From Prolixibacter sp. SD074 (GTDB lineage: Bacteria > Bacteroidota > Bacteroidia > Bacteroidales > Prolixibacteraceae), in the NCBI RefSeq assembly GCF_009617895.1, contig NZ_BLAW01000001.1:115001-179000 (forward strand): 64,000 nt of DNA. The letters are read 5' to 3'. Below are positions 39,731-42,742 of this stretch, piece by piece; the first letter of the stretch is position 1; each line of letters starts with the position of its first letter. Both the position numbers and the translations under genes were made by a program. Below the pieces are notes generated by a model, which worked only from the letters and a program-made list of their open reading frames with translations, did not search any database and was not told where the DNA came from.

Positions 39731-41365
39731 TTACTTTCTTACATTAATAATACTTCCTTTGGCAGCATTGGGCGGCATAATTCCCAGAAAATCGGCTACT
39801 GTGGGAACCACATCCATAATATTGGTGCGCTGGTTAAGGGTCCCGTGTTTTACATGTCCACCCCAAAAAATTAAAGGGACCTGGCTATTCTCGGTATAAT
39901 CAATGCGTTGGTATTTTTCTTTGGGTTGCCAACCTTCCTCAAATCGAAGTAAGATATCTCCCGATCGCTTGGGATTGTAGCTATTCTGGAAAGGAGCAAA
40001 AGCGCTTCCCAGCAAATTGACTGACTCGAGTTCGGATGCCGCGCGACAATTGGCTACCCCCTGAAATTGATTTAAGAAACTGGCTGCCTCCTTTTGTAGG
40101 GCCGCTAAATCAATTTTTCGCTCATTAATGAGGTCGCGATCGAAGTAAACCTGCTGGTTCATGTAGCTTTCTACATAGTTTCCTTGCCCGAATTTAATAT
40201 TGAGGTAGGCCTTTAACAACGCAACAGCTCCTTCGGGATTGAAGGTGCCGGACTGCATGTGAAATTCTTCCTTCAAATAGGAAGAAGGATAAGATTCGCT
40301 GGAAGTGCCCGTCAGAAAGACAACAACATTGTCTTTTCCAATGGTACGGTCAAGATAATTCAGCAAATGAGCAATATTCTGATCCATTCGCAGGTAAGTA
40401 TCTTCCATCTCAACAGAAGCCGGGCCAAAAGAATTCCGTTCATAATCCATTGATGAGAAGGTGACGGTCAACATATCCGGGACACTGTCCTGGCCAAGCC
40501 CCTCATTGGCAATTAGTGAAGTGGCAAAGTCCGAAACCATTAAATTTCCGTATGGTGTGGTTTTTAGTACGCGGTAGTCTTCCGTTCGTTTCTGTAACTT
40601 CGACAGTTCGTAAGGGAAAGTATTCCATTTATCGTAATAACCAGGCTCCAGAATATAACCGTCCTCAATACTTTCGGTGTAACTTGAAATGGGATACAGT
40701 GTTTCCCACTTACGGTGAATATAATCGTCAGCAAGTTTTTGGTTGTTGAAATTGAAAGCCCAATCCGGGAATGTTTCCACGTAATATGAACTGGAAATCA
40801 TGTTGCCGCTCTCGGCATCGAACCAGTATGCTCCATCCCCCGCATGGCCGGCAGAAAAAACTGCTGCGGGTGCATTTAGTGCCACACTATATACCTTCGC
40901 TTTTCCATTGGTCATTATTTTCAGTGCGTCACCAATGGTCGGCGTCATCAGTTTCATTGCCGACCGGTCGCCTTCCATGCTGTTTGAACCAACGGTTGTA
41001 TAATAATCGTCCTGGGTACAATCGATTACTTTCTTCCTAAGGCGGTCAATCCATTGATCGTTCACAATACCGTTGAACGAAGGAGCGGCACCGGTAAATA
41101 GTGTTGCCATCCCTACTGACGGACGTTGAATCAGGTTGTCGATATGATTGTTTCGGCACACAAATCCCTGGTTAACCAACCGGCGAAAACCGTCAGTCCG
41201 GAACTTATCCCAGTAACGGTCGAAGTAATCGGGACGAATGTCTTCCACCACAATCCCCACTAACAGTTTCGGGCGATAGGTTTTCCCGTTAGCGTGCGAC
41301 TGTGCATGCAGCAGAATGGGACTGAGTAATCCCAGGAAAAAAATTGCAAAACGTTTGATATACAT
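39731..41365 (-). CDS. PafA-like alkaline phosphatase superfamily protein, catalytic residues lost
   Basis: 544-aa secreted protein (signal peptide ending LLHAQ) that aligns along its whole length with PafA, the Elizabethkingia alkaline phosphatase, as recalled by me: LVGIVVEDIRPDYF, FTGAAPS, YWFDAESG, SFGPASVEMEDTYLR, VYFDRDL and VPLIFWG. The active site is not kept. In PafA numbering Asp38 is Glu, the nucleophile Thr79 is Pro, Asn100 is Asp, Lys162 is Asn, Arg164 is Pro, His309 is Asn, Asp352 is Thr, His353 is Ser and His486 is Gln; only Asp305 remains. It should not bind two zincs or hydrolyse phosphate esters. The reading frame is intact, so it may have a binding or structural role. Confidence 0.8.
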   Translation of the reverse strand: MYIKRFAIFFLGLLSPILLHAQSHANGKTYRPKLLVGIVVEDIRPDYFDRYWDKFRTDGFRRLVNQGFVCRNNHIDNLIQRPSVGMATLFTGAAPSFNGIVNDQWIDRLRKKVIDCTQDDYYTTVGSNSMEGDRSAMKLMTPTIGDALKIMTNGKAKVYSVALNAPAAVFSAGHAGDGAYWFDAESGNMISSSYYVETFPDWAFNFNNQKLADDYIHRKWETLYPISSYTESIEDGYILEPGYYDKWNTFPYELSKLQKRTEDYRVLKTTPYGNLMVSDFATSLIANEGLGQDSVPDMLTVTFSSMDYERNSFGPASVEMEDTYLRMDQNIAHLLNYLDRTIGKDNVVVFLTGTSSESYPSSYLKEEFHMQSGTFNPEGAVALLKAYLNIKFGQGNYVESYMNQQVYFDRDLINERKIDLAALQKEAASFLNQFQGVANCRAASELESVNLLGSAFAPFQNSYNPKRSGDILLRFEEGWQPKEKYQRIDYTENSQVPLIFWGGHVKHGTLNQRTNIMDVVPTVADFLGIMPPNAAKGSIINVRK

Positions 41366-41416: not shown

Positions 41417-41878
41417 TCACCATTTCGAAAATGGATTTCTGGCAAGATAGGAATTAAAATAATGCGTATTACCGGTTACTTCTTCTCCAATCCACGGAGG
41501 AAGTTCAAAATCTTCGTCTTCCGATTCGAGCTCAATTTCCGCTATAATCAGTCCTTCGTTAGCTCCAATAAACTCATCGACTTCCCATATTTTCCCTTCA
41601 AAGGGAATTTTGCTCCTGAATTTTTCCACCGGTTGGGTTACACTCAGGTTCATCAGTTCCCGGGCATCACTAACGGGGATTTCATATTCAAACTCAGGAC
41701 GGGTGAAACTCTCTACCTTGCCTTTGAGGGTCAGGTAACCACGATTTCCGGCGATCCGGATTCTTATTGTTCTTTCCGGATCGGTGGTTAAGTATCCTTG
41801 AATATAATGTACGGACGGTGCCATAATCCGCCAGTCGTCATTGGTAACGAGAAATTTCCGTTCAGTTTCTTGTGCCAT
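41417..41878 (-). CDS. CYTH domain protein (triphosphate tunnel metalloenzyme)
   Basis: 153-aa cytosolic protein of the CYTH/TTM family. It opens with ETERKFLV, the E-x-E-x-K signature, followed by alternating charged strands (RTIRIRIAGNRGYLTLKG, EFEYEIPV, KIWEVDEFIG, IIAEIELESEDE) that line the tunnel. Small bacterial members usually hydrolyse inorganic triphosphate or nucleoside triphosphates; class IV adenylate cyclase activity is less common. It lies 51 bp upstream of the PafA-like gene, on the same strand. Confidence 0.88.
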   Translation of the reverse strand: MAQETERKFLVTNDDWRIMAPSVHYIQGYLTTDPERTIRIRIAGNRGYLTLKGKVESFTRPEFEYEIPVSDARELMNLSVTQPVEKFRSKIPFEGKIWEVDEFIGANEGLIIAEIELESEDEDFELPPWIGEEVTGNTHYFNSYLARNPFSKW

Positions 41879-42439: not shown

Positions 42440-42742
42440 ATGAGTGTGCTGAAGGAAGTATGTGTGGAAAGTCTGTCCGAAGCGCTGAATGCAGTTCATG
42501 CAGGTGCTACCCGGATCGAACTTTGTGAAAACTTAGCCGTGGGAGGAACTACGCCATCGTACGGAACAATAAAAAAAAGCAAAGAGACTTTGCCGGTTCC
42601 CTTTATGGTTATGATACGGCCGCGTGGCGGTGATTTTGTTTACACCGGAAAAGTAACCAACGAGAATTTTGAGCAGGTAAAAAGTATGGTGCCGTCCGAT
42701 GAATTTCACGGAAGGGAATTGGTGGGGAATATTGCCTTGTAA
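42440..42742 (+). pseudogene. cutC: cutC remnant with large in-frame internal deletion
   Basis: 100 codons. Residues 1-~66 are the N-terminus of CutC (KEVCVESLSEALNAVHAG, RIELCENLAVGGTTPS, MVMIRPRGGDFVYT). It then jumps directly to what looks like the extreme C-terminus of the family (GKVTNENFEQVK...EFHGRELVG). Normal CutC is about 240 residues, so roughly 140-150 residues of the TIM barrel are missing without loss of frame. Half a barrel is very unlikely to fold. CutC was first linked to copper tolerance; its biochemical role is unclear. Confidence 0.8.

Follow-up and report, generated by a model that had tools for sequence, protein, structure and literature searches.

The gene at 39731–41365 on the minus strand of the window (the whole 64,000-nucleotide stretch of the Prolixibacter sp. 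SD074 genome that was analyzed) encodes a homologue of the phosphatase PafA that is almost certainly a pseudoenzyme. Judged from its sequence, the protein is a member of an order-wide group of pseudoenzymes homologous to PafA. The gene has probably been kept, despite the lost active site, for a non-catalytic task of which we found no description. The open reading frame list and the translation give an unbroken frame of 544 codons (P0001), which starts with a signal-peptide-like N terminus (residues 1–22, ending ...LLHAQ; 41300–41365, minus strand) recognized by eye in the translation. PafA (PDB 5tj3) aligns with residues 29–540 at an E value of 6.8e-96, so that the intact, secreted protein with full-length similarity to PafA described in an earlier note on this DNA is borne out.

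What the window protein shares with PafA (PDB 5tj3 and 5too; NCBIfam model NF042991) is homology over the full length and secretion; what sets it apart is its active site and a score of 512.9 bits against the NCBIfam model, under the equivalog cut-off of 650. With the same model, three intact copies from families f56 and f58 score 689–706 and one canonical copy 775, while four other dead copies, meaning copies that have lost active-site residues, score 296–611. The top Pfam match of the window protein is Phosphodiest (PF01663). The alkaline phosphatases PhoK and 3q3q, which are named enzymes in the PDB, match it more weakly, in two pieces and with much lower similarity. A search of the window's genome at E values up to 1 recovered no second PafA-like gene, the sole other match scoring 9 bits. 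An AlphaFold2 model built from the window protein together with L032–L034 reached a pLDDT of 37.5, which is too low for use.

The ten active-site residues were taken as the earlier note had named them, their numbering was verified on the PafA chain, and the window protein was aligned with PafA by MAFFT. Nine of the ten are replaced, including the nucleophile and five of the six zinc ligands, which confirms what the earlier note had claimed. Asp38 of PafA corresponds to Glu41, the nucleophile Thr79 to Pro82 (codon 41120–41122, minus strand, as are all codons given here), Asn100 to Asp103, and Lys162 and Arg164 to Asn164 and Pro166 (40868–40876). Asp305, the sole zinc ligand kept, is Asp307, and His309 is Asn311 (together 40433–40447); the adjoining zinc ligands Asp352 and His353 are Thr354 and Ser355 (40301–40306), and His486 aligns with Gln486. 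The last site borders an alignment gap and its exact partner is uncertain, but the window protein has no histidine between residues 369 and 504, and therefore no small shift of the alignment restores it. Three genomes of the same genus (92–97% identical) also lack nine of the ten residues and carry identical replacements, except for an arginine instead of the glutamine at the His486 site. Since the loss recurs in these genomes and the gene is under purifying selection, sequencing error is an unlikely cause.

PafA-like matches were found in 50 of 61 genomes of relatives, in 95 of 149 genomes of the order, which we take to be the Bacteroidales in GTDB, and in 85 of 198 genomes of a phylum set, the window's genome being included each time. 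Of the 37 genomes in the window's family 35 gave a match, and every one of these carries a dead copy with seven to nine of the ten residues lost. Three of them (G002, G034 and G017) hold, besides the dead copy, a second copy that keeps every residue covered. The order sample was scored for 94 of the 95 matching genomes (G184 is the unscored one, and two extra pieces from G043 were left out); 86 have only dead copies, seven have an intact copy, and the copy of G042 is one residue short. Identical proteins were entered once, and two fragments from G512 aligned only partly. Outside the order, all ten residues are present in 68 of 69 copies (66 genomes examined, of 84 with a match), and the copy at L258, which is cut by a contig end, keeps nine of nine covered residues. 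At position 38, re-reading found an aspartate in all 20 outside-order rows (of 29) that the choice of start codon had first left gapped. The suspicion that a whole family of such dead phosphatases lies hidden thus proved right, every matching genome of the family having a dead copy and 86 of the 94 genomes scored in the order having no other kind. A canonical PafA copy at L053 (G017) keeps its catalytic residues in the part that was scored and is split into two reading frames; it was left out of the trees and of the canonical sets. The NCBI lineage of L034 is Marinilabiliales.

The ratio dN/dS of the window gene (Nei-Gojobori) is 0.032 and 0.033 against the two nearest named records, P. bellariivorans (97% identity) and P. 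denitrificans (92%), the second value being rough because synonymous distances are high. Seven neighboring genes range from 0.009 to 0.109, with hisS at 0.041 and 0.034 and hutH at 0.029 and 0.020. The dN/dS comparison that the earlier note had called for thus agrees with its picture of a pseudoenzyme under selection, at a level like that of nearby hisS. These values contradict the explanation that the gene is decaying and on its way out, to which the lost catalytic residues might point, together with ten genomes of the order that have Lnb (see below) and no PafA-like match. The frames are also unbroken throughout the window's family, the gene persists in nearly all of its genomes, and residues 370–444 are conserved more tightly than in working PafA, and we give decay next to no credence.

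The catalytic columns themselves are among the looser parts of the dead proteins. Across 127 dead rows nine of them lie between the 48th and the 96th percentile of variability, and that of D38 at the 28th. Proline at position 79 occurs in 15 of the 127 rows, nine of which are Prolixibacter and near relatives, and Thr-Ser at 352–353 in seven. The old pocket drifts among the dead proteins: the replacements, whose conservation the earlier note wanted tested, are not conserved, and a shared new function carried by them is not supported. A shared new pocket at the old active site was accordingly rejected. Binding of a sugar or lipid, another suggestion of the earlier note, is unlikely as the common function of a repurposed pocket because the replacements are unshared and the pocket columns variable; single lineages may still use it in this way. 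A related alternative is that the pocket now binds or senses a ligand bearing phosphate, such as a phospholipid or a glycan headgroup. In its favor, a good part of the scaffold persists, with 63 columns conserved at 85% or more in dead rows, and Asp305 is retained in 39 of 127 rows. From family to family, however, the pocket columns differ and share no replacement, the one exception being position 38, with D or E in 110 of 126 rows, and we regard such a ligand site as improbable. Still less probable, to the point of being hard to credit, is that the protein remains an enzyme by way of other residues or another metal. Position 38 is still acidic (E or D), and position 305 still D, in most rows of the Prolixibacteraceae; in the window protein, however, the nucleophile is lost along with most of the metal ligands, and the ten sites show no other conserved set.

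Constraint in the dead proteins is concentrated elsewhere. When 15-residue windows were compared between dead and canonical rows, all those with data before residue 370 and after residue 474 were less conserved in the dead rows. In the five windows over 370–444, by contrast, the dead rows are more conserved by 0.36–0.86 bits, and the difference fades to 0.16 over 445–459 and to 0.01 over 460–474. Relative to the rest of the protein, the entropy of 370–444 is 0.97, 0.80 and 0.97 in three dead groups and 1.59 in canonical PafA, the mean identities being 0.48, 0.42 and 0.40 for the dead groups and 0.45 for the canonical one. The part of PafA that is less conserved in canonical copies is thus the better conserved part in dead ones. 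As the only long stretch that is tighter than in working PafA, residues 370–444 (40034–40258, minus strand) are a candidate interaction face. Protein binding, which the earlier note had also suggested, comes close to the function that we propose, but it would take place at a site other than the old pocket.

Intact relatives within the order bear on when this second function arose. Family f56 keeps all ten residues in each of 10 genomes, and family f58 in each of 3. Three trees from which the ten columns were left out place the f56 and f58 copies among the dead rows and gather the canonical copies into one group. One tree requires nine losses if nothing is regained, but the AU test does not reject a single dead clade (p 0.169 and 0.076). 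Against a single loss, there is no site among the ten that differs from PafA in every one of the 127 dead rows, so that one founding lesion would need reversal. The three scored intact copies of f56 and f58 have 15–16 of the 16 residues of a 370–444 signature, for which dead rows average 14.4 (lowest 8) and canonical rows 7.6 (highest 13), a contrast that is partly built in, as the sites were picked for conservation in dead rows. Neighboring genes, clustered by BLAST with each cluster named from one member, also match: the intact copy at L178 has in common with dead copies an S8 protease, cluster c18, a GGGP synthase, a PPTase-like gene, GldD and GldE, and that at L176 an M14 peptidase and CrcB. 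Since intact copies in two families show neighbors of the dead type and the 370–444 signature, the second function may predate the loss of catalysis. Intact and dead relatives in matching gene neighborhoods amount to a natural experiment on the passage from enzyme to pseudoenzyme.

A possible identity for the second function comes from Lnb, which in Bacteroides is a lipoprotein N-acyltransferase (Armbruster et al. 2024, as cited in PMC13103446). Lnb (NF051878; PF13387 plus PF25221) is present in 77 of 149 genomes of the order, 41 of 61 relatives and 53 of 198 genomes of the phylum set; the single Lnb of the order that was scored against NF051878 reached 405.9 bits, under its cut-off of 550. 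Among the 67 order genomes that hold both, Lnb lies within 2.5 kb of the PafA-like gene in 25. The adjacent copies are all dead in the 24 genomes scored, the remaining one being G184. In the other 42 genomes the pair is farther apart than 2.5 kb, on different contigs in 38 and far apart on one contig in four, including the window's. Spacing between Lnb and the PafA-like gene at 23 loci runs from −64 to +62 bp, some of the negative values possibly being start-codon artefacts, and an exact 4-bp overlap occurs in eight. In 21 of these 23 loci SecA then follows on the same strand. L164 has neighbors of the size of Lnb and SecA and is a locus without a row in the neighbor map.

Moreover, a search of 120 genomes of family f41 found Lnb and PafA in one unbroken frame in at least nine genomes of six genera (G077, G402, G460, G416, G484, G410, G394, G480 and G399, of which G077 and G402 are identical). 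G494, which has a stop inside its match, was not counted. The domain order by Pfam in one fusion is Lnb_N, 5TMH_Lnb, Phosphodiest. All seven fusions that were scored have lost eight or nine of the ten residues and are dead, G480 and G399 falling outside the scoring. Several joints retain a hydrophobic stretch resembling the old signal peptide, which suggests that the fused PafA domain would sit in the periplasm. Single polypeptides with an Lnb periplasmic domain, a transmembrane domain and a dead PafA domain can be seen at L170:4968-7742 and in L204, L205 and L207–L211. The fusion links the dead family in a direct and testable way to the maturation of lipoproteins, on which the surface biology of these bacteria rests.

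The association is far from strict. Co-occurrence of PafA-like genes with Lnb gives a Fisher p of 8e-10, on which no weight is placed because it takes no account of relatedness. Lnb is absent from 28 of the 95 order genomes in which a PafA-like gene was matched, and a PafA-like match is absent from 10 of the 77 that have Lnb. A second query of these ten genomes, run without a positive control, also gave no PafA-like match. In the window's family, eight of 37 genomes have a dead copy without Lnb (G004, G007, G008, G010, G011, G012, G026 and G028), and G015 and G022 have Lnb without a PafA-like match. Strict dependence on Lnb is ruled out by these genomes. The second lipoprotein enzyme considered, Lnt, is present in 84 of 149 genomes of the order. 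G092, G094 and G170, whose copies are intact, have Lnt but no Lnb, so Lnb is not necessarily the original partner. Of the 39 genomes that hold both Lnt and a PafA-like gene, G061 (f11) alone has them within 2.5 kb, with Lnt one small gene upstream. In the window's genome Lnb is neither adjacent nor fused but lies about 3.46 Mb from the window (G000 C1:3614142). At this locus (L198:6065-7258) an ABC-transporter ATPase gene stands upstream and a MutS-like gene downstream, both named by eye.

We propose that the ancestral protein would have had two jobs, that of a phosphatase and a non-catalytic one carried at least partly by residues 370–444, and that most lineages would have dropped the first, perhaps more than once, and kept the second. 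After Sec export the dead protein would sit in the periplasm and there assist, as a non-catalytic partner, the enzyme by which lipoproteins receive their third acyl chain, serving as a factor for docking, presentation or stability. This enzyme would be Lnb in genomes that have it and perhaps Lnt in others; in the window's genome it would be the unlinked Lnb. Elsewhere in the order Lnb is operon neighbor and fusion partner of the dead group; here it is a separate, unrelated protein with an unlinked gene, and the role is for this reason carried over from relatives. Taken as a whole, with an order-wide pseudoenzyme, a two-job ancestor and a partner in lipoprotein N-acylation, this explanation is tentative and falls a little short of probable, and the periplasmic partnership by itself is possible but somewhat doubtful. 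A more sweeping form, in which a two-job phosphatase became an overlooked N-acylation subunit throughout the order, fused to Lnb in one family, its active site lost repeatedly because only the 370–444 face mattered, we consider rather unlikely.

Adjacency and fusion could instead reflect the operon history of one lineage. The dead proteins would then be general envelope pseudoenzymes, periplasmic chaperones or scaffolds for outer-membrane or surface proteins, a reading that we think rather unlikely. In its favor, outside the Lnb-linked group most mapped loci do not adjoin Lnb, many are convergent to GldD and GldE (genes for gliding and type IX secretion) or lie near proteases, and more than a quarter of the matching order genomes lack Lnb altogether. 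This reading would, however, need a separate reason for the adjacency in 25 genomes and for the single polypeptides.

Secreted pseudoenzymes that keep their fold, lose catalysis and take on a binding or scaffold role are known from other families. The general idea is the same here; in the open-licence literature searched, no PafA-derived family is among them, nor did we find one described there. PMC12578637 makes no mention of phosphatase or PafA, and PMC11885536 none of phosphatase, Lnt, Lnb or N-acyl. Where PMC8115612 deals with PafA, its presence is taken as a phylum-wide sign of constitutive phosphatase activity. A later study (PMC8812569) retained only those sequences that carry the key residues (423 isolate sequences, against 468 given for the isolate set) and so set homologues with lesions aside; its passages on this selection do not follow them up. 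Since most sampled matches in the order lack the residues needed, phosphatase activity deduced there from homology is likely overstated.

Elsewhere the dead genes have varied neighbors, among them GGGP synthase, a PPTase-like gene, GldD, GldE, an M14 peptidase and a CYTH protein. In the window, a gene for a CYTH-domain protein (41417–41878, minus strand; Pfam match of the L032 orthologue) lies 51 bp upstream of the dead PafA gene, and the pair recurs in L032, L033, L034, L037, L038 and L195, in several Prolixibacteraceae. Finally, a stretch at about 42440–42742 reads, by eye, like the start of the copper-homeostasis protein CutC, seemingly cut short before hisS.
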